The translations under genes were made by a program, and so were the position numbers. This document shows positions 9,279 through 49,568 of a DNA stretch of 64,000 nucleotides, piece by piece (within the stretch, counting starts at the first letter, position 1; each line of letters opens with the position of its first letter). Below the pieces are notes generated by a model. The model was not told where the DNA came from. It worked only from the letters and a program-made list of their open reading frames with translations, and searched no databases. Origin of the DNA: Phymorhynchus buccinoides (taxonomy: Eukaryota; Mollusca; Gastropoda; Neogastropoda; Raphitomidae); the NCBI GenBank assembly GCA_017654935.2, contig CM065695.1, forward strand, positions 37,182,431-37,246,430, in the 5' to 3' direction.

Positions 9279-12200
9279 GATGTATAAAGTGGTTGATGTG
9301 GGCAGTGTGTGTGTTACAGCTGTAAAGTGGTTGGTGTGGGCAGTGTGTGTGTTACAGCTGTAAAGTGGTTGATGTGGGCAGTGTGTGTGTTACAGCTGTA
9401 AAGTGGTTGATGTGGGCGGTGTGTGTGTTACAGCTGTAAAGTGGTTGATGTGGGCAGTGTGTGTGTTACAGCTGTAAAGTGGTTGATGTGGGCGGTGTGT
9501 GTGTTACAGCTGTAAAGTGGTTGATGTGGGCAGTGTGTGTGTTACAGCTGTAAAGTGGTTGATGTGGGCAGTGTGTGTGAGTGTTACAGCTGTAAAGTGG
9601 TTGATGTGGGCAGTGTGTGTGTTACAGCTGTAAAGTGGTTGATGTGAGCACTGTGTGTGTTACAGCTGTAAAGTGGTTGATGTGGGCAGTGTGTGTGTTA
9701 CAGCTGTAAAGTGGTTGATGTGGGCAGTGTGTGTGTTACAGCTGTAAAGTGGTTGATGTGGGCAGTGTGTGTGTTACAGCTGTAAAGTGGTTGATGTGGG
9801 CAGTGTGTGTGTGTTACAGCTGTAAAGTGGTTGATGTGGGCAGTGTGTGTGTTACAGCTGTAAAGTGGTTGATGTGGGCAGTGTGTGTGTTACAGCTGTA
9901 AAGTGGTTGATGTGGGCAGTGTGTGTGTTACAGCTGTAAAGTGGTTGATGTGGGCATTGTGTGTGTTACAGCTGTAAAGTGGTTGATGTGGGCAGTGTGT
10001 GTGTTACAGCTGTAAAGTGGTTGATGTCGGCAGTGTGTGTGTGTTACAGTTGTAAAGTGGTTGATGTGGGCAGTGTGTGTGTTACAGCTGTAAAGTGGTT
10101 GATGTGGGCAGTGTGTGTGTTACAGCTGTAAAGTGGTTGATGTGGACAGTGTGTGTGTTACAGCTGTAAAGTGGTTGATGTGGGCAGTGTGTGTGTGTTA
10201 CAGCTGTAAAGTGGTTGATGTGGGCAGTGTGTGTGTTACAGCTGTAAAGTGGTTGATGTGGGCAGTGTGTGTGTTACAGCTGTAAAGTGGTTGATGTGGG
10301 CAGTGTGTGTGTTACAGCTGTAAAGTGGTTGATGTGGGCAGTGTGTGTGTTACAGCTGTAAAGTGGTTGATGTGGGCAGTGTGTGTGTGTTACAGCTGTA
10401 AAGTGGTTGATGTGGGCAGTGTGTGTGTGTGTGTTACAGCTGTAAAGTGGTTGATGTGGGCAGTGTGTGTGTTACAGCTGTAAAGTGGTTGATGTGGGCA
10501 CTGTGTGTGTTACAGCTGTAAAGTGGTTGATGTGGGCAGTGTGTGTGTGTGTTACAGTTGTAAAGTGGTTGAAGTGGGCAGTGTGTGTGTGTGTGTAACA
10601 GTGTTTAAAGTGAGCACTGTGTGTGTTGCAGCTGTAAAGTGGTTGATGTGGGCAGTGTGTGTTACAGCTGTAAAGTGGTTGATGTGGGCAGTGTGTGTGT
10701 TACAGCTGTAAAGTGGTTGATGTGGGCAGTGTGTGTGTTACAGCTGTAAAGTGGTTGATGTGGGCACTGTGTGTGTTACAGCTGTAAAGTGGTTGATGTG
10801 GGCAGTGTGTGTGTGTGTTACAGCTGTAAAGTGGTTGATGTGGGCAGTGTGTGTGTTACAGCTGTAAAGTGGTTGATGTGGGCAGTGTGTGTGTGTTACA
10901 GCTGTAAAGTGGTTGATGTGGGCAGTGTGTGTGTTACAGCTGTAAAGTGGTTGATGTGAGCACTGTGTGTGTTACAGCTGTAAAGTGGTTGATGTGGGCA
11001 CTGTGTGTGTTACAGCTGTAAAGTGGTTGATGTGGGCAGTGTGTGTGTGTGTACAGCTGTAAAGTGGTTGATGTGTGCAGTGTGTGTACAGTGTGTGTGG
11101 TTGTGTGTGTGTGTGTTACAGCTGTAAAGTGGTTGATGTGGGCAGTGTGTGTGTGTTACAGCTGTAAAGTGGTTGATGTGGGCAGTGTGTGTGTTACAGC
11201 TGTAAAGTGGTTGATGTGGGCAGTGTGTGTGTTACAGCTGTAAAGTGGTTGATGTGGGCAGTGTGTGTGTGTTACAGCTGTAAAGTGGTTGATGTGGGCA
11301 GTGTGTGTGTTACAGCTGTAAAGTGGTTGATGTGGGCAGTGTGTGTGTTACAGCTGTAAAGTGGTTGATGTGGGCAGTGTGTGTGTTACAGCTGTAAAGT
11401 GGTTGATGTGGGCAGTGTGTGTGTGTTACAGCTGTAAAGTGGTTGATGTGGGCAGTGTGTGTGTGTGTGTGTGTTACAGCTGTAAAGTGGTTGATGTGGG
11501 CAGTGTGTGTGTTACAGCTGTAAAGTGGTTGATGTGGGCAGTGTGTGTGTTACAGCTGTAAAGTGGTTGATGTGGGCAGTGTGTGTGTGTGTGTGTTACA
11601 GCTGTAAAGTGGTTGATGTGGGCAGTGTGTGTGTGTTACAGCTGTAAAGTGGTTGATGTGGGCAGTGTGTGTGTGTGTGTGTTACAGCTGTAAAGTGGTT
11701 GATGTGGGCAGTGTGTGTGTTACAGTTGTAAAGTGGTTGATGTGGGCAGTGTGTGTTACAGCTGTAAAGTGGTTGATGTGGGCGGTGTGTGTGTTACAGC
11801 TGTAAAGTGGTTGATGTGGGCAGTGTGTGTGTGTTACAGCTGTAAAGTGGTTGATGTGGGCAGTGTGTGTGTGTGTTACAGCTGTAAAGTGGTTGATGTG
11901 GGCAGTGTGTGTGTTACAGCTGTAAAGTGGTTGATGTGGGCAGTGTGTGTTACAGCTGTAAAGTGGTTGATGTGGGCGGTGTGTGTGTTACAGCTGTAAA
12001 GTGGTTGATGTGGGCGGTGTGTGTGTTACAGCTGTAAAGTGGTTGATGTGGGCAGTGTGTGTGTTACAGTTGTAAGGTGGTTGATGTGGGCAGTGTGTGT
12101 GTGTTACAGCTGTAAAGTGGTTGATGTGGGCAGTGTGTGTGTGTTACAGCTGTAAAGTGGTTGATGTGGGTGGTGTGTGTGTTACAGCTGTAAAGTGGTT

Positions 12201-15200
12201 GATGTGGGCAGTGTGTGTGTTACAGCTGTAAAGTGGTTGATGTGAGCACTGTGTGTGTTACAGCTGTAAAGTGGTTGATGTGAGCAGTGTGTGTGTGTTA
12301 CATGTGTAAAGTGGTTGATGTGAGCAGTGTGTGTGTTACAGCTGTAAAGTGGTTGATGTGAGCACTGTGTGTGTTACAGCTGTAAAGTGGTTGATGTGAG
12401 CAGTGTATGTGTTACAGCTGTAAAGTGGTTGATGTGGGCAGTGTGTGTGTTACAGCTGTAAAGTGGTTGATGTGAGCAGTGTGTGTGTTACAGCTGTAAA
12501 GTGGTTGATGTGGGCAGTGTGTGTGTGTTACAGTTGTAAAGTGGTTGATGTGGGCAGTGTGTGTGTTACAGCTGTAAAGTGGTTGATGTGGGCAGTGTGT
12601 GTGTGTGTGTTACAGCTGTAAAGTGGTTGATGTGAGCAGTGTGTGTGTTACAGCTGTAAAGTGGTTGATGTGGGCAGTGTGTGTGTGTGTGTTACAGCTG
12701 TAAAGTGGTTGATGTGAGCACTGTGTGTGTTACAGCTGTAAAGTGGTTGATGTGGGCAGTGTGTGTGTTACAGCTGTAAAGTGGTTGATGTGGGCAGTGT
12801 GTGTGTGTGTGTGTGTTACAGCTGTAAAGTGGTTGATGTGGGCAGTGTGTGTGTTACAGCTGTAAAGTGGTTGATGTGGGCAGTGTGTGTGTGTTACAGC
12901 TGTAAAGTGGTTGATGTGGGCAGTGTGTGTGTGTTACAGCTGTAAAGTGGTTGATGTGGGCAGTGTGTGTGTTACAGCTGTAAAGTGGTTGATGTGGGCA
13001 GTGTGTGTGTTACAGCTGTAAAGTGGTTGATGTGGGCAGTGTGTGTGTTACAGTTGTAAAGTGGTTGATGTGGGCAGTGTGTGTGTTACAGCTGTAAAGT
13101 GGTTGATGTGGGCAGTGTGTGTGTTACAGCTGTAAAGTGGTTGATGTGGGCAGTGTGTGTGTTACAGCTGTAAAGTGGTTGATGTGGGCAGTGTGTGTGT
13201 TACAGCTGTAAAGTGGTTGATGTGAGCAGTGTGTGTGTTACAGCTGTAAAGTGGTTGATGTGGGCAGTGTGTGTGTGTTACAGCTGTAAAGTGGTTGATG
13301 TGGGCAGTGTGTGTGTTACAGCTGTAAAGTGGTTGATGTGGGCAGTGTGTGTGTTACAGCTGTAAAGTGGTTGATGTGGGCAGTGTGTGTGTGTTACAGC
13401 TGTAAAGTGGTTGATGTGGGCAGTGTGTGTGTTACAGCTGTAAAGTGGTTGATGTGGGCAGTGTGTGTGTTACAGCTGTAAAGTGGTTGATGTGGGCAGT
13501 GTGTGTGTTACAGTTGTAAAGTGGTTGATGTGGGCAGTGTGTGTGTTACAGCTGTAAAGTGGTTGATGTGGGCAGTGTGTGTGTTACAGCTGTAAAGTGG
13601 TTGATGTGGGCAGTGTGTGTGTTACAGCTGTAAAGTGGTTGATGTGGGCAGTGTGTGTGTTACAGCTGTAAAGTGGTTGATGTGGGCAGTGTGTGTGTTA
13701 CAGCTGTAAAGTGGTTGATGTGGGCAGTGTGTGTGTTACAGCTGTAAAGTGGTTGATGTGGGCAGTGTGTGTGTTACAGCTGTAAAGTGGTTGATGTGGG
13801 CAGTGTGTGTGTTACAGCTGTAAAGTGGTTGATGTGGGCAGTGTGTGTGTGTTACAGCTGTAAAGTGGTTGATGTGGGCAGTGTGTGTGTTACAGCTGTA
13901 AAGTGGTTGATGTGGGCAGTGTGTGTTACAGCTGTAAAGTGGTTGATGTGGGCAGTGTGTGTGTTACAGCTGTAAAGTGGTTGATGTCGGCAGTGTGTGT
14001 GTGTTACAGTTGTAAAGTGGTTGATGTGGGCAGTGTGTGTGTTACAGCTGTAAAGTGGTTGATGTGGGCAGTGTGTGTGCTACAGCTGTAAAGTGGTTGA
14101 TGTGGGCAGTGTGTGTGTTACAGCTGTAAAGTGGTTGATGTGGGCAGTGTGTGTTTTACAGCTGTATAGTGGTTGATGTGGGCAGTGTGTGTGTTACAGC
14201 TGTAAAGTGGTTGATGTGGGCAGTGTGTGTTACAGCTGTATAGTGGTTGATGTGGGCAGTGTGTGTGTGTGTTACAGCTGTAAAGTGGTTGATGTGGGCA
14301 GTGTGTGTGTGTGTGTTACAGCTGTAAAGTGGTTGATGTGGGCAGTGTGTGTGTTACAGCTGTAAAGTGGTTGATGTGGGCAGTGTGTGTGTTACAGTTG
14401 TAAGGTGGTTGATGTGGGCAGTGTGTGTGTGTGTGTTACAGTTGTAAAGTGGTTGAAGTGGGCAGTGTGTGTGTGTGTTGTAAAGTTGTAAAGTGAGCAC
14501 TGTGTGTGTTGCAGCTGTAAAGTGGTTGATGTGGGCACTGTGTGTGTTACAGCTGTAAAGTGGTTGATGTGGGCAGTGTGTGTGTTACAGCTGTAAAGTG
14601 GTTGATGTGGGCAGTGTGTGTGTGTTACAGCTGTAAAGTGGTTGATGTGAGCACTGTGTGTGTTACAGCTGTAAAGTGGTTGATGTGGGCAGTGTGTGTG
14701 TTACAGCTGTAAAGTGGTTGATGTGGGCAGTGTGTGTGTTACAGCTGTAAAGTGGTTGATGTGGGCAGTGTGTGTGTGTTACAGTTGTAAAGTGGTTGAT
14801 GTGGGCAGTGTGTGTGTTACAGCTGTAAAGTGGTTGATGTGAGCACTGTGTGTGTTGCAGCTGTAAAGTGGTTGATGTGGGCACTGTGTGTGTTACAGCT
14901 GTAAAGTGGTTGATGTGGGCAGTGTGTGTGTGTGTTACAGCTGTAAAGTGGTTGATGTGGGCAGTGTGTGTGTGTGTGTGTTACAGCTGTAAAGTGGTTG
15001 ATGTGGGTGTGTGTGTGTTACAGCTGTAAAGTGGTTGATGTGGGCAGTGTGTGTGTTACAGCTGTAAAGTGGTTGATGTGGGCAGTGTGTGTGTTACAGC
15101 TGTAAAGTGGTTGATGTGGGCAGTGTGTGTGTGTTACAGCTGTAAAGTGGTTGATGTGTGGCAGTGTGTGTGTGTTACAGCTGTAAAGTGGTTGATGTGG

Positions 15201-18200
15201 GCAGTGTGTGTTTTACAGCTGTATAGTGGTTGATGTGAGCAGTGTGTGTGTTACAGCTGTAAAGTGGTTGATGTGGGCAGTGTGTGTGTTACAGCTGTAA
15301 AGTGGTTGATGTGGGCAGTGTGTGTGTGTGTGTGTTACAGCTGTAAAGTGGTTGATGTGGGCAGTGTGTGTGTGTTACAGTTGTAAAGTGGTTGATGTGG
15401 GCAGTGTGTGTGTGTGTGTGTTACAGCTGTAAAGTGGTTGATGTGGGCAGTGTGTGTGTTACAGCTGTAAGGTGGTTGATGTGGGCAGTGTGTGTTACAG
15501 CTGTAAAGTGGTTGATGTGGGCGGTGTGTGTGTTACAGCTGTAAAGTGGTTGATGTGGGCGGTGTGTGTGTTACAGCTGTAAAGTGGTTGATGTGGGCAG
15601 TGTGTGTGTGTGTGTGTGTTACAGCTGTAAAGTGGTTGATGTGGGCAGTGTGTGTGTTACAGTTGTAAAGTGGTTGATGTGGGCAGTGTGTGTGTTACAG
15701 CTGTAAAGTGGTTGATGTGGGCGGTGTGTGTGTTACAGCTGTAAAGTGGTTGATGTGGGCGGTGTGTGTGTTACAGCTGTAAAGTGGTTGATGTGAGCAG
15801 TGTGTGTGTTACAGTTGTAAGGTGGTTGATGTGGGCAGTGTGTGTTACAGCTGTAAAGTGGTTGATGTGGGCGGTGTGTGTGTGTTACAGCTGTAAAGTG
15901 GTTGATGTGGGTGGTGTGTGTGTTACAGCTGTAAAGTGGTTGATGTGGGCAGTGTGTGTTACAGCTGTAAAGTGGTTGATGTGAGCACTGTGTGTGTTAC
16001 AGCTGTAAAGTGGTTGATGTGAGCAGTGTGTTACAGCAGGGACTGATGTGTAAAGTGGTTGATGTGAGCAGTGTGTGTGTTACAGCTGTAAAGTGGTTGA
16101 TGTGAGCACTGTGTGTGTTGCAGTTGTAAAGTGGTTGATGTGAGCAGTGTATGTGTTACAGCTGTAAAGTGGTTGATGTGGGCAGTGTGTGTGTGTGTTA
16201 CAGTTGTAAAGTGGTTGATGTGAGCAGTGTGTGTGTTACAGCTGTAAAGTGGTTGATGTGGGCAGTGTGTGTGTGTTACAGTTGTAAAGTGGTTGATGTG
16301 AGCACTGTGTGTGTTACAGCTGTAAAGTGGTTGATGTGGGCAGTGTGTGTGTGTGTTACAGCTGTAAAGTGGTTGATGTGAGCAGTGTGTGTTACAGCTG
16401 TAAGGTGGTTGATGTGGGCAGTGTGTGTGTGTGTGTTACAGTTGTAAAGTGGTTGATGTGAGCACTGTGTGTGTTACAGCTGTAAAGTGGTTGATGTGGG
16501 CAGTGTGTGTGTTACAGCTGTAAAGTGGTTGATGTGGGCAGTGTGTGTGTGTGTGTGTGTGACAGCTGTAAAGCTGTTGAGTGTTGATGTGTGTGTGTTA
16601 CAGTTGTAAAGTGGTTGATGTGGGCAGTGTGTGTGTTACAGCTGTAAAGTGGTTGATGTGGGCAGTGTGTGTGTGTTACAGCTGTAAAGTGGTTGATGTG
16701 GGCGGTGTGTGTGTTACAGCTGTAAAGTGGTTGATGTGGGCAGTGTGTGTGTTACAGCTGTAAAGTGGTTGATGTGGGCAGTGTGTGTGTTACAGCTGTA
16801 AAGTGGTTGATGTGGGCAGTGTGTGTGTTACAGCTGTAAAGTGGTTGATGTGGGCAGTGTGTGTGTTACAGCTGTAAAGTGGTTGATGTGGGCAGTGTGT
16901 GTGTTACAGCTGTAAAGTGGTTGATGTGGGCAGTGTGTGTGTTACAGCTGTAAAGTGGTTGATGTGGGCAGTGTGTGTGTTACAGCTGTAAAGTGGTTGA
17001 TGTGGGCAGTGTGTGTGTGTTACAGCTGTAAAGTGGTTGATGTGGGCAGTGTGTGTGTTACAGCTGTAAAGTGGTTGATGTGGGCAGTGTGTGTGTTACA
17101 GCTGTAAAGTGGTTGATGTGGGGGGTGTGTGTGTTACAGCTGTAAAGTGGTTGATGTGGGCAGTGTGTGTGTTACAGCTGTAAAGTGGTTGATGTGGGCA
17201 GTGTGTGTGTTACAGCTGTAAAGTGGTTGATGTGGGCAGTGTGTGTGTTACAGCTGTAAAGTGGTTGATGTGGGCAGTGTGTGTGTTACAGCTGTAAAGT
17301 GGTTGATGTGGGCAGTGTGTGTGTTACAGCTGTAAAGTGGTTGATGTGGGCAGTGTGTGTGTTACAGCTGTAAAGTGGTTGATGTGGGCAGTGTGTGTGT
17401 TACAGCTGTAAAGTGGTTGATGTGGGCAGTGTGTGTGTTACAGCTGTAAAGTGGTTGATGTGGGCAGTGTGTGTGTGTTACAGCTGTAAAGTGGTTGATG
17501 TGGGCAGTGTGTGTGTTACAGCTGTAAAGTGGTTGATGTGGGCAGTGTGTGTGTGTTACAGCTGTAAAGTGGTTGATGTGGGCAGTGTGTGTGTGTTACA
17601 GCTGTAAAGTGGTTGATGTGGGCAGTGTGTGTGTGTTACAGCTGTAAAGTGGTTGATGTGGGCAGTGTGTGTGTTACAGCTGTAAAGTGGTTGATGTGGG
17701 CAGTGTGTGTGTTACAGTTGTAAGGTGGTTGGTGTGGGCAGTGTGTGTGTGTGTTACAGTTGTAAAGTGGTTGAAGTGGGCAGTGTGTGTGTGTGTGTTA
17801 CAGTTGTAAAGTGAGCACTGTGTGTGTTGCAGCTGTAAAGTGGTTGATGTGGGCAGTGTGTGTGTTACAGCTGTAAAGTGGTTGATGTGGGCAGTGTGTG
17901 TGTTACAGCTGTAAAGTGGTTGATGTGGGCAGTGTGTGTGTTACAGCTGTAAAGTGGTTGATGTGAGCACTGTGTGTGTTACAGCTGTAAAGTGGTTGAT
18001 GTGGGCAGTGTGTGTGTTACAGCTGTAAAGTGGTTGATGTGGGCAGTGTGTGTGTTACAGCTGTAAAGTGGTTGATGTGGGCAGTGTGTGTGTGTTACAG
18101 CTGTAAAGTGGTTGATGTGGGCAGTGTGTGTGTTACAGCTGTAAAGTGGTTGATGTGGGCAGTGTGTGTGTGTTACAGCTGTAAAGTGGTTGATGTGGGC

Positions 18201-21198
18201 AGTGTGTGTGTTACAGCTGTAAAGTGGTTGATGTGGGGGTGTGTGTGTGTGTTACAGCTGTAAAGTGGTTGATGTGGGGTGTGTGTGTGTGTGTGTGTGT
18301 TACAGCTGTAAAGTGGTTGATGTGGGCAGTGTGTGTGTGTTACAGCTGTAAAGTGGTTGATGTGGGCAGTGTGTGTGTTACAGCTGTAAAGTGGTTGATG
18401 TGGGCAGTGTGTGTGTTACAGCTGTAAAGTGGTTGATGTGGGCAGTGTGTGTGTGTTACAGCTGTAAAGTGGTTGATGTGGGGTGTGTGTGTTACAGCTG
18501 TAAAGTGGTTGATGTGGGCAGTGTGTGTGTTACAGCTGTAAAGTGGTTGATGTGAGCAGTGTGTGTGTTACAGCTGTAAAGTGGTTGATGTGGGCAGTGT
18601 GTGTGTTACAGCTGTAAAGTGGTTGATGTGGGCAGTGTGTGTGTGTGTGTGTTACAGCTGTAAAGTGGTTGATGTGGGCAGTGTGTGTGTTACAGCTGTA
18701 AAGTGGTTGATGTGGGCGGTGTGTGTGTTACAGCTGTAAAGTGGTTGATGTGGGCGGTGTGTGTGTGTGTGTGTGTGTGTGTTACAGCTGTAAAGTGGTT
18801 GATGTGGGCAGTGTGTGTGTTACAGCTGTAAAGTGGTTGATGTGGGCAGTGTGTGTGTGTTACAGCTGTAAAGTGGTTGATGTGGGCAGGTGTGTGTGTT
18901 ACAGCTGTAAAGTGGTTGATGTGGGCAGTGTGTGTGTTACAGCTGTAAAGTGGTTGATGTGGGCGTGTGTGTGTGTTACAGCTGTAAAGTGGTTGATGTG
19001 GGCAGTGTGTGTGTTACAGCTGTAAAGTGGTTGATGTGGGCACTGTGTGTGTTACAGCTGTAAAGTGGTTGATGTGAGCACTGTGTGTGTTACAGCTGTA
19101 AAGTGGTTGATGTGGGCAGTGTGTGTGTGTTACAGCTGTAAAGTGGTTGATGTGGGCAGTGTGTGTGTTACAGCTGTAAAGTGGTTGATGTGAGCAGTGT
19201 GTGTGTTACAGCTGTAAAGTGGTTGATGTGGGCAGTGTGTGTGTGTTACAGCTGTAAAGTGGTTGATGTGAGCAGTGTGTGTGTTACAGCTGTAAAGTGG
19301 TTGATGTGGGCAGTGTGTGTGTGTGTTACAGCTGTAAAGTGGTTGATGTGAGCAGTGTGTGTGTTACAGCTGTAAGGTGGTTGATGTGGGCAGTGTGTGT
19401 GTGTGTTACAGCTGTAAAGTGGTTGATGTGAGCACTGTGTGTGTTACAGCTGTAAAGTGGTTGATGTGGGCAGTGTGTGTGTGTGTTACAGCTGTAAAGT
19501 GGTTGATGTGGGCAGTGTGTGTGTTACAGCTGTAAAGTGGTTGATGTGGGCAGTGTGTGTACAGTGTAAAGTGGTTGACAGCACTGTGAGCAGTGTGTGT
19601 GTAAAGTGGTTGATGTGGGATGTGTGTGTGTGTGTGTTACAGTTGATGTGTAAAGTGGTTGATGTGGGCAGTGTGTGTGTTACAGCTGTAAAGTGGTTGA
19701 TGTGGGCAGTGTGTGTGTTACAGCTGTAAAGTGGTTGATGTGGGCAGTGTGTGTGTTACAGCTGTAAAGTGGTTGATGTGGGCAGTGTGTGTGTGTTACA
19801 GCTGTAAAGTGGTTGATGTGGGCAGTGTGTGTGTTACAGCTGTAAAGTGGTTGATGTGGGCAGTGTGTGTGTTACAGCTGTAAAGTGGTTGATGTGGGCA
19901 GTGTGTGTGTTACAGCTGTAAAGTGGTTGATGTGGGCAGTGTGTGTGTGTTACAGCTGTAAAGTGGTTGATGTGGGCAGTGTGTGTGTTACAGCTGTAAG
20001 TGGTTGATGTGCAGTGTGTGTGTTACAGCTGTAAAGTGGTTGATGTGGGCAGTGTGTGTGTTACAGCTGTAAAGTGGTTGATGTGGGCAGTGTGTGTGTG
20101 TGTTACAGCTGTAAAGTGGTTGATGTGGGCAGTGTGTGTGTACAGTGTGTGTGTTACAGCTGTAAAGTGGTTGATGTGGGCAGTGTGTGTGTTACAGCTG
20201 TAAAGTAAAGTGGTTGTGTGTGTTACAGCTGTAAAGTGGTTGATGTGGGCAGTGTGTGTGTTACAGCTGTAAAGTGGTTGATGTGGGCAGTGTGTGTGTG
20301 TTACAGCTGTAAAGTGGTTGATGTGGGCAGTGTGTGTGTTACAGCTGTAAAGTGGTTGATGTGGGCAGTGTGTGTGTTACAGCTGTAAAGTGGTTGATGT
20401 GGGCAGTGTGTGTGTGTTACAGCTGTAAAGTGGTTGATGTGGGCAGTGTGTGTGTTACAGCTGTAAAGTGGTTGATGTGGGCATGTGGGCAGTGTGTGTG
20501 TGTTACAGCTGTAAAGTGGTTGATGTGGGCAGTGTGTGTGTTACAGCTGTAAAGTGGTTGATGTGGGCAGTGTGTGTGTTACAGCTGTAAAGTGGTTGAT
20601 GTGGGCAGTGTGTGTGTTACAGCTGTAAAGTGGTTGATGTGGGCAGTGTGTGTGTTACAGCTGTAAAGTGGTTGATGTGGGCAGTGTGTGTGTGTTACAG
20701 CTGTAAAGTGGTTGATGTGGGCAGTGTGTGTGTTACAGCTGTAAAGTGGTTGATGTGAGCAGTGTGTGTGGTTACAGCTGTAAAGTGGTTGATGTGGCAC
20801 TGTGTGTGTTACAGCTGTAAAGTGGTTGATGTGGGCAGTGTGTGTGTGTTACAGCTGTAAAGTGGTTGATGTGGGCAGTGTGTGTGTTACAGCTGTAAAG
20901 TGGTTGATGTGAGCAGTGTGTGTGTTACAGCTGTAAAGTGGTTGATGTGGGCAGTGTGTGTGTGTTACAGCTGTAAAGTGGTTGATGTGGGCAGTGTGTG
21001 TGTTACAGCTGTAAAGTGGTTGATGTGAGCAGTGTGTGTGTTACAGCTGTAAAGTGGTTGATGTGGGCAGTGTGTGTGTTACAGCTGTAAAGTGGTTGAT
21101 GTGGGCAGTGTGTGTGTTACAGCTGTAAAGTGGTTGATGTGGGCAGTGTGTGTGTTACAGCTGTAAAGTGGTTGATGTGGGCAGTGTGTGTGTTACAG
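9279..21198. repeat. Giant 38-bp minisatellite, about 300 units, ending at a splice acceptor
   Basis: The unit is TTACAGCTGTAAAGTGG + TTGATGTGGGCAG + (TG)n. The basic period is 38 bp; the TG tail varies so spacing is mostly 36-50 bp. Common variants are GAGCAC or GGCGGT for GGGCAGT and TTGTAA for CTGTAA. Each unit holds the 12-bp palindrome TTACAGCTGTAA, a branch-point-like TTGAT and a (TG)n-TTACAG acceptor-like block. The last TTACAG (21193-21198) is the presumed acceptor of the exon at 21199. Recurrent rare variants show that multi-kilobase segments were duplicated inside the array. I place it in the last intron of that gene. Confidence 0.95.
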
Positions 21199-21307
21199 CA
21201 GGGACTCCTCGCCCCCTACCCAGCGAAGCAGCACCCTGAACATCAAACGCAATTCCGGCTGGCCCTGGATGGACATCAAGAAGGACTCCTTCAAGCTCTT
21301 CTACTGA
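21199..21307 (+). CDS. Candidate terminal coding exon of an unrecognised gene
   Basis: After TTACAG, one frame (codons from 21200) reads 35 residues ending SGWPWMDIKKDSFKLFY and a TGA at 21305-21307. The sequence changes abruptly from array to balanced, GC-rich, protein-like DNA, and the reading frame starts at a good AG. The acceptor is a tandem CAGCAG (NAGNAG), so the first exon base could be 21199 or 21202. I do not recognise the protein family. No upstream exon is visible in the window: the preceding 12 kb is array, and the 9 kb before it has no supported coding exon, so the previous exon is probably to the left of the window. A second frame is also open across this region (QGLLAPYPAK...), which weakens the call. 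The gene would be convergent with the minus-strand G alpha s gene. Confidence 0.45.
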
Positions 21308-47647: not shown

Positions 47648-47778
47648 CATCTGGAGGGACCTGGTATCGAGCGTACTCCGGGAAGTAGTCCTCTATCTTG
47701 GACTTGCCCGACTTCACCTTGTCTGCCAACAGGTCTTGCTTGTTCAGAAATAAAATCACTGATATCGTCCGCAACCAC
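47648..47778 (-). CDS. GNAS: G protein alpha-s subunit, NKQD exon
   Basis: 131 bp. The acceptor is GTGTTGCAG/GTGGTTGCGG; the donor is CCAGATG/GTTAGT. The first base completes Arg, then [20 protein letters not shown] follows, ending [12 protein letters not shown] is the G4 motif that confers guanine specificity. The same region in vertebrate G alpha s has [20 protein letters not shown], so identity is clear. The first 33 bases of this exon and its acceptor have been tandemly copied into the upstream intron (47779-48110), giving at least three decoy acceptors. The exon itself is intact and in phase. Confidence 0.97.
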
Positions 47779-48110
47779 CTGCAACACCCCAGAAATAATA
47801 TCACAGATATCGTCCGCAACACCCCAGAAATAACATCACCGATATAGTCCGCAACCACCTGCAACACCCCAGAAATAGCATCACCAATATCGTCCACAAC
47901 CACCTGCAACACCCCAGAAATAATATCACCAATATCGTCCGCAACACCCCAGAAATAACAACACCGATATCGTCCGCAACCACCTGCAACACCCCAGAAA
48001 AAATATAACCGATATCGTCCGCAACACCCCAGAAATAACATAACCGATACCGTCCGCAACACCCCAGACCTAACATCGCTGATATCATCCGCAACCATGT
48101 GCAATAATAT
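47779..48110. repeat. Exon-derived minisatellite (35/45-bp units) at a G alpha s splice acceptor
   Basis: The exon copy (47746-47790) plus eight further units start at 47791, 47826, 47871, 47916, 47951, 47996, 48031 and 48066. Units of 45 bp contain exon start, acceptor CTGCAAC (plus strand) and ACACCCC; 35-bp units lack the 10-bp CACCTGCAAC. On the minus strand each copies the codons for (R)[10 protein letters not shown]. Units at 47826, 47871 and 47951 retain TTGCAG/GTGG; the 48066 unit has lost the AG. Confidence 0.95.
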
Positions 48111-48794
48111 GACGCTGAGAAGTAATGTGACGTTCGATGTCTTTATACCCTCCATGGGGGACTTTAAAGTCTAGTGAGCACATCATATATCAAGCGTGAT
48201 GCACACTTTCTTTTTTTTTTTTGCTGTCCCATCTTCTGGGCCATACAGTGGCGTTGCTCCCACGCCGCTCATTCCGAGTCCCAACACGCAGCCACACACC
48301 CGACTTGTTCAGGTCGCAGAATCCGCAACCAGCAGTCCAAGGGGAGTGAATCTATGTTAGGCTGTCAAGAGGCAACCAACCGAGGAGACACTGTAAAGCT
48401 GCTGAGTCACTTTGGTAGAGTTCAGTGGAGCCTGTACGCACGACACCACCTACTAAGCCCCCTACTGACAACAATTATGTCTTAGTCGTGGAGCCAGTGT
48501 GAGTGAGGTCCTCCTTCGAAGGCGCAACCAACGTCCGTCCAGCGACAGCTCCCCAGAACATACTGATCCCCATGACTTTGACCTGAACGCACCACAGAAT
48601 TTGACTTTTTTTTTCTTGTTTGATGATTGACAGAAATGAGGCGGATGACAATGACAATGATGATGCTATGGAGTTCTGTATTGGTCTGAGACTATGTGAC
48701 AGGGCTGTATTCTACGCTTCCTTTCATACTGATATCCCGACGTTAACCAGGCCCGAGAACTACAGACACCTGCAGTGTTGGTCATGAAATTAGA
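48111..48794. other. Intronic spacer
   Basis: A poly-T run lies near 48209-48221. No exon or element is recognised. Confidence 0.5.
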
Positions 48795-48995
48795 GCAAAA
48801 CACTCGGAATCGCATCCGTTAAGTGGATGAAGCTCAACTGCGCGGTTTCAGTCTTCCCACCGAGCCCATAGCCACTCACTCTGGGTAGGAGTCGGTCCAG
48901 GACCGAAAAAATCCTCGCCTATGATGGGATTCGAACCTGTGACCTCCCAGCCAGCAGTCCGCGATTATACCACAACTCTACGGCGGCTGGTGTGA
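48795..48995 (-). mobile_element. tRNA-derived SINE, family S5, reversed
   Basis: Read on the minus strand, ACAGGTTCGAATCCCATC is a B-box and CCGTAGAGTTGTGGTATAAT the A-box side, followed by CGGTCCTGGACCGACTCCTA. Different from S1 and S2. Only one copy is in the window, so it could be a tRNA-derived pseudogene. Confidence 0.65.
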
Positions 48996-49388
48996 TGCAC
49001 ACTTTCTTGATCTCTGAATGCACGGATACTTTTCCAGGTATTCTTGGTGGAAATGTTGATCTATTCTTTCTTTTCTTCAGCTAGTAAGCAGCTAGATTGT
49101 CGTGCACATCGATTTCTTGACAGAAGTGGACAGCCAGAAATGCTTATATAGACTGCAAAGTTGGCTATACGCACGGCAGCTGTGCCGCTCTGTACATAAG
49201 ACGATCGATTTGTATCACTTTTTTATAAAAAAAATCAAAGTTTAGAAAGCGGAATTTTATGGATTCGGGCGGAAGAAATTCCGTTCAAAGCGGAAAGGTT
49301 GGCGGGTCTGGGCATGGTCTGCATGTTATTCTTACCAGCGTTATAATGTGTAACTCCATGAAACAGCCCCATTCAACTCGGCACCGAC
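48996..49388. other. Intronic spacer
   Basis: Nothing recognised. It ends at the donor of the next exon. Confidence 0.5.
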
Positions 49389-49568
49389 CTGTTGTTCCAG
49401 ATGCTCTTGAACAGCTCTAGGGACTCCCGGAGGCGGTTTTGGCTTGCATCTTCTCGTAACACCAGGTTGTAGCCGCTGCAGGCCGTGACAAAGATGATGG
49501 CCGTCACGTCGTTGAAGCACTGGATCCACTTCCTCCTCTCATCACGCTGGCCCCCCACGTCAAACATG
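49389..49568 (-). CDS. GNAS: G protein alpha-s subunit, DVGGQR exon
   Basis: 180 bp. The acceptor is CGCTGCAG/CATGTTTGAC. Its first base completes His; then [18 protein letters not shown] and so on to LFKSIWNN, with AG left for the next Arg codon. DVGGQ is the G3/switch II motif, whose Gln positions the hydrolytic water. [10 protein letters not shown] and the following helix are typical of G alpha s. The donor is AACAG/GTCGGT, unusual in having C at +3 and G at +4, so it is a weak site. The downstream intron (47779-49388) holds the exon-derived minisatellite at its 3' end and a SINE. Confidence 0.97.

Follow-up and report, generated by a model that had tools for sequence, protein, structure and literature searches.

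Our analysis revealed that the start of coding exon 8 of a G-alpha-s gene of Phymorhynchus buccinoides, together with the last bases of the preceding intron, is repeated eight times in that intron, and that three of the copies carry an intact splice acceptor. Very likely, this array is a "mirage" minisatellite, the product of indiscriminate tandem duplication that survived through exon-proximal splicing.

The stretch of DNA analyzed here (64,000 nucleotides; the window) is contained in a 55.6-Mb contig (C16) of the 2.12-Gb genome, and its minus strand carries the last 5 of the 10 coding exons of the gene, which is central to cAMP signaling. Assembled from the window and neighboring stretches, the gene model comprises 10 coding exons and encodes 375 amino acids without an internal stop. 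The closest database proteins come from two gastropods, Nucella lapillus (93%) and Pomacea canaliculata (92%). In the gene model, use of the live acceptor joins AACAACAG in frame to GTGG. The donor of the array-bearing intron, CAG/GTCGGT (49380-49388, minus strand), has an unusual C at position +3.

A second intact G-alpha-s gene, with 10 exons and 375 amino acids, was found on a separate contig of 70.5 kb (C1201), which we treated as belonging to the same animal. The two proteins are identical at 347 of 376 alignment columns (stop included), and the exon lengths are equal at all 10 exons. We rejected an allele or second haplotype as an interpretation of C1201 in favor of a diverged second gene, as the exons are 71-93% identical. 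When 7-kb stretches of the two genes were compared, the alignment was limited to exons and simple repeats. The Nucella protein is nearer to the C1201 protein (360/375) than to that of the window (348/375). We also observed that coding exon 5 of the C1201 gene (L019) has an inverted copy of 87 bases, 100% identical and ~1.2 kb downstream, which spans most of the exon and its donor. In the G-alpha-s database protein of Magallana gigas (P0004, 413 amino acids), the exon EFYEHTEILW...CAQY is present twice consecutively, either because the exon was duplicated in tandem or through a similar error in the gene model.

The features of the window that bear on the array are as follows (all on the minus strand; a slash marks an exon-intron boundary).

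49389..49568, minus strand: coding exon 7 of G-alpha-s, the upstream partner; donor CAG/GTCGGT
47648..47778, minus strand: coding exon 8 of G-alpha-s, 131 nt, the source of the repeat; donor ATG/GTTAGT
47779..47784, minus strand: live splice acceptor TTGCAG, placed by inference from the protein; matrix score 11.3
47745..48104, minus strand: junction minisatellite, comprising the live junction and eight copies of 45 or 35 bp
47785..47819, minus strand: 35-bp unit without acceptor, directly before the live acceptor
47820..47864, minus strand: 45-bp unit with intact decoy acceptor, exon-equivalent start 47858 (+80 nt); score 9.9; predicted stop after 19 codons
47865..47909, minus strand: 45-bp unit with intact decoy acceptor, exon-equivalent start 47903 (+125 nt); score 11.3; predicted stop after 34 codons
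47910..47944, minus strand: 35-bp unit without acceptor
47945..47989, minus strand: 45-bp unit with intact decoy acceptor, exon-equivalent start 47983 (+205 nt); score 12.8; predicted stop after 19 codons
47990..48024, minus strand: 35-bp unit without acceptor
48025..48059, minus strand: 35-bp unit without acceptor
48060..48104, minus strand: distal edge unit, 45 bp, degenerate and most diverged; TTGCACATGG replaces TTGCAGGTGG
48115..48116, minus strand: AG beyond the array, a weak acceptor (score 3.3); its use would add 336 nt in frame, or 112 stop-free codons

With TTGC taken as the first bases of each unit (minus strand), the units start at 48104, 48059, 48024, 47989, 47944, 47909, 47864, and 47819, with the live junction at 47784; from the far end, their lengths are 45, 35, 35, 45, 35, 45, 45, and 35 bp. 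These nine starts bear out the preliminary description, which had the acceptor and exon start repeated eight times in the adjoining intron as 45- and 35-bp units. The repeated part consists of 11 intron bases and 34 exon bases; the earlier account was right that the first part of the exon is repeated but had counted 33 coding bases. Its further statement that the copies still translate as a given peptide needs correction, as the peptides encoded by the intact decoys are not exactly the one claimed. The 35-bp units lack ten bases, AGGTGGTTGC, located between two TTGC repeats, and therefore have no acceptor. The TTATTTCTG before the live acceptor is itself a copy of coding sequence, supplied by the unit at 47785..47819.

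TRF reported periods of 35, 45, 80, and 125 for the array. The 125-bp block at 47745-47869, inside which the live junction lies, is 93% identical to 47870-47994, implying that the live exon start itself has been involved in the turnover of the array. The local score of the array was 75, whereas 1000 dinucleotide shuffles of it scored no higher than 27, so the matches extend beyond chance, as had been argued from the aligned units. No further copy was detected in the remaining 1278 bases of the intron (best score 20, matched by 76 of 1000 shuffles). A DNA search of the genome with the array, which skips very common words, returned this place and a 41-bp match to the exon of the second G-alpha-s gene; with one place listed, a dispersed repeat is not supported. 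The distal edge unit has 5-8 mismatches in 26 bases to the other units, which differ mutually at 2-5; the opposite edge is the live exon. Probably, the distal edge unit is a relic of the original junction, with a lesser chance that its acceptor was lost through that same deletion of ten bases in another upstream setting.

The C1201 gene has an intron at the same place and contains the TTGCAG/GTGG junction of this exon in one copy only. This single clean junction identifies the exon as the source and the array as derived, in support of the earlier proposal that the array was seeded from the exon-intron junction. Intron gain by tandem duplication, which we also considered, does not apply, the intron position being common to both genes and all 10 exons equal in length. 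Since 45 bp, the length of the founding unit, is divisible by three, either acceptor would have preserved the frame after the first duplication, unlike in the present array.

We assessed what the decoys would do if they were used. Three intact TTGCAG/GTGG decoys had been announced, with exon-equivalent starts at 47858, 47903, and 47983 and offsets of 80, 125, and 205 nt; these values proved exact, and none of the offsets being a multiple of 3, the frame would shift as foreseen and run into stops after 19, 34, and 19 codons. All three predicted stops lie 221-346 nt before the last exon junction, a distance at which nonsense-mediated decay would usually be predicted. We scored the decoys on a small position matrix derived from acceptors of both G-alpha-s genes (18, the live site left out) and obtained 9.9, 11.3, and 12.8 compared with 11.3 for the live site. 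The decoy at 47903 is preceded by 20 bases identical to those upstream of the live site, and the decoy at 47983 outscores the live site. The sequence CAG/GTGGTT, checked as a donor for a recursive (ratchet) site, scored 0.8 on the small matrix, just under the live donor of this intron at 1.5. The genes being intact, we infer that the decoys are tolerated and the transcripts correctly spliced; decoys as good as the real site probably must be ignored. The preliminary description had called this tolerance notable. The decoys are indeed intact and frame-shifting, but tolerance is less remarkable than it had seemed, given the other intact G-alpha-s gene and the presence at further exons of comparable copies of the junction, mostly with intact sites (see below).

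These properties could also be read as those of poison acceptors, used at a controlled rate and setting the dosage of G-alpha-s through nonsense-mediated decay. The decoy scores and the early stops after every decoy would fit such a role, as would the upstream donor, whose score of 1.5 is the lowest among the 18 donors of the two G-alpha-s genes. Against it, similar copies are found at other, unrelated exons, there is no sign that the array is maintained, and the acceptor has been lost in 5 of the 8 copies. We consider regulation of this kind improbable.

To place the array in context, we scanned 68 exons for their own copies within 3 kb, scoring as positive those with same-direction copies that cover at least 12 coding bases. 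This small, non-random sample comprised 40 G-alpha profile matches, the 20 exact exons of the two G-alpha-s genes, and 8 CCT matches. The 63 G-alpha rows yielded the 40 that were scanned as rows, 8 that were replaced by exact G-alpha-s exons, and 15 that were left out. The 8 CCT matches were drawn from 54 rows, C33 and C515 being compact clusters and C3552 having been chosen for its long open frame. Exon ends were taken from the profile matches, which in some cases extend beyond the exon.

Same-direction local copies were present at 17 of the 68 exons and inverted copies at 1. The copies include the exon end at 14 of the 68, distributed over 6 of 18 contig groups (contigs or parts of contigs, which may not be single genes), so the load is uneven. 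Three of the 17 positive exons have one interior match only, at 75-90% identity. In a cross-family control, in which G-alpha exons were set against CCT neighborhoods and the reverse, 640 pairings gave 0 direct and 3 inverted hits. A first permuted control, in which related G-alpha genes were mixed, gave 15 direct and 2 inverted hits in 176 pairings; related G-alpha exons in the other neighborhoods may explain the 15. These data point to exon ends in this snail genome often being accompanied by intact copies, within the limits of a small, non-random sample.

Among the individual arrays, we found six acceptor copies at C3272:12978, three at C31:30363502, 23 donor copies at C8:62474388, and seven at C8:62470116. 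The CCT gene on C33 has boundary copies at all three exons read; none were found in the 2.6 kb read around the C3552 match. In a third family, the last 111 matched bases of a myosin exon and the following 30 bases recur in no fewer than three further copies of 96-98% identity; this exon was picked for an overlapping second match in the table and thus shows occurrence, not frequency. Coding exon 5 of the window's own gene, which lies outside the window ~36 kb upstream of exon 6, has a donor-side array in which 7 exon bases and adjoining intron occur in four copies at ~113 bp. At the other exons of the two G-alpha-s genes, we found no same-direction boundary copies with at least 12 coding bases. 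Stop-free frames of ~700 to 1800 codons hold several exon matches (C27:30848853, 30851499, C3552:19065, C29:39030945-39031949, and C6:19574387). The C29 stretch contains a junction array; the matches other than those of C29 and C3552 may be long but ordinary exons.

In 15 junction arrays from the positive exons, GT is kept in 52 of 52 donor copies and AG in 30 of 38 acceptor copies, with sites placed by eye, approximate offsets for gapped copies, and 4 of the 8 "lost" acceptors being one-base gaps that are possibly alignment effects. The G-alpha-s array retains the acceptor AG in 3 of 8 copies, compared with 27 of 31 in the other acceptor arrays (p = 0.009); the former figure is from the full unit list, the 15-array count having captured seven of the eight copies. 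This loss could mean selection against decoys in the G-alpha-s array but is suggestive at best. The copies cannot be counted as independent, since one ten-base deletion, spread along with the array, accounts for four of the five losses.

If a splice-site feature such as the AG/GT core, or breaks linked to transcription, made junctions hotspots of minisatellite birth, seeding would be targeted to them. The exon end is included at 14 of the 17 exons with copies, as such targeting would predict, but a tandem copy within an intron must carry the boundary for purely geometric reasons, and copies will usually include the exon end. As a control, we drew 500 random noncoding segments of the same lengths from near the same exons, excluding known exons only. 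Direct copies were as frequent there (138/500, 27.6%) as at the exons (17/68, 25%; p = 0.77). Inverted copies were commoner in the noncoding segments (57/500 compared with 1/68, p = 0.009), which makes the excess of direct over inverted copies somewhat larger at exons and speaks for targeting. Tandem repeats with a period of at least 20 make up 15% of the 303 kb examined, ranging from 0 to 60% per stretch, with some stretches overlapping. Targeting of junctions is thus not supported, and we rate it as highly improbable. Of the proposed "seeding" from the junction, the part that stands is that the exon is the source; junctions are not special, as duplication is just as common in nearby noncoding sequence.

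Assemblers are known to have difficulty with tandem arrays. A supplement legend states that one of the amphioxus mirages had been assembled wrongly (PMC3087553). In the present case, all nine units are distinct, any two differing at 2 or more of 26 bases, which argues against a stutter of identical copies, and the array lies in the interior of a 55.6-Mb contig; that the assembler created the extra units is therefore extremely improbable. Just as little credence attaches to an alternative exon, in which an upstream AG (48069, 48078, or 48114) would be used and the array translated as an insertion of 97-112 residues between N-N and W-L-R: each of the three AGs found between 48069 and 48116 shares the frame of exon 8, and that frame is open through the array, but they score -10.4, 6.6, and 3.3 against 11.3 for the live site, the insertion is absent at this point from seven mollusc sequences, and the open frame was noticed after the fact.

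Two further observations were made in the window. On the plus strand, 9285-21199 is a 12-kb array of ~306 units of 38 bp with a consensus containing TGTGTGTTACAG. It ends in ...TTACAGC and is followed at 21200-21307 by the open frame RDSSPPTQRSSTLNIKRNSGWPWMDIKKDSFKLFY and a stop, with AATAAA ~370 bases on. Possibly, this is a giant array of acceptors preceding a putatively coding 3'-terminal exon; Pfam and PDB searches with the open frame gave no match. Within the array-bearing intron, at ~48880-49000 on the minus strand, is a stretch that resembles a tRNA-derived SINE, with a GGTTCGAATCC box.

We propose the following course of events for the mirage minisatellite. A 45-bp stretch of 11 intron and 34 exon bases would have been duplicated in tandem by slippage or unequal exchange, after which the array would have grown, some units losing ten bases, and become partially homogenized. 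Local tandem duplication would be frequent throughout the genome, striking exon ends about as often as other sequence, and copies of exon ends would persist because one copy stays joined to the body of the exon. The spliceosome would keep to the exon-proximal site, probably via exon definition, with the other copies removed as intron: only the proximal copy precedes a complete exon and its donor, whereas each decoy precedes 34 exon bases. Occasional use of a decoy would give transcripts with early stops that are presumably degraded by nonsense-mediated decay. The array need not have a function.

A broader proposal, to which we assign about an even chance, is that in this snail lineage a large proportion of exon ends (14/68 exons sampled) carry copies produced by runaway tandem duplication, mostly intact and, where measured, as strong as the real site, and hence that position next to a complete exon, not local splice-site sequence, picks the site. 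If this is true, each array is a natural experiment in competing splice sites, and the arrays are a permanent source of new introns, isoforms with a shifted frame, and variable splicing. The wider point, that exon ends often have intact copies, is more interesting than the single array. Near-identical splice sites beside a conserved gene allow the choice made by the spliceosome to be asked about in a living animal, and the tandem-duplication route to new introns becomes testable in another phylum. A further caution is that decoy junctions can find their way into the gene models of such genomes.

In the open-license literature, we found comparable structures for amphioxus and human segmental duplications, one such duplication for potato, and no molluscan case; for Conus introns, the part of the report consulted mentions only short simple repeats (PMC3862624). 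The mirages of amphioxus are described as tandem units across an exon-intron boundary, with either end of the exon affected; AG/GT is kept in many but not all copies, and edge units escape homogenization (PMC3087553). RT-PCR, haplotype differences, and somatic instability have been reported for them. The G-alpha-s array is a tandem, minisatellite-like repeat, as seen in its TRF periods and eight extra copies; its unit spans an exon-intron boundary of a real gene that is intact; and it is homogenized inside, with a diverged unit at its edge. By the features examined in the sequence, it is a mirage minisatellite. Its boundary-spanning unit is laid out as in BflGb6, where the 3' end of the intron and the 5' part of exon 2 are repeated (PMC3087553), and the diverged edge unit is a further likeness. 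It differs in belonging to a mollusc and to another gene and in being accompanied by a small survey suggesting that a sizeable share of exons carry such copies. Mirages at several snail genes suggest that high rates of minisatellite birth are the cause, not a peculiarity of lancelets.

Boundary-spanning duplications have also been reported outside amphioxus. A similar structure is described in PGBD5, with troponin C and Adh cited (PMC3902484). Human genes in segmental duplications have variable internal tandem repeats at their exon-intron boundaries (PMC2812944). As in the snail, these are minisatellites over the boundary that grow by copy number; they differ, in the portion of that work available to us, in mostly elongating exons or introns of young primate paralogs, in often having supported alternative transcripts, and in the novel introns proposed (PMC2812944). 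The snail array lies in a conserved gene, with the intron position unchanged. A potato RdRp gene acquired a new intron through one tandem duplication across an intron-exon boundary, which, like ours, ran from the 3' end of an intron into the beginning of the following exon and passed on the splice signals (PMC4974935). There, one duplication led to a new intron, whereas in the snail there are many copies and no new intron position. Lastly, Reed and Maniatis reportedly used test constructs with duplicated splice sites in 1986. Those constructs and the present array have in common near-identical splice sites competing in cis; the snail array differs in being natural and in placing 34 exon bases only behind each decoy.
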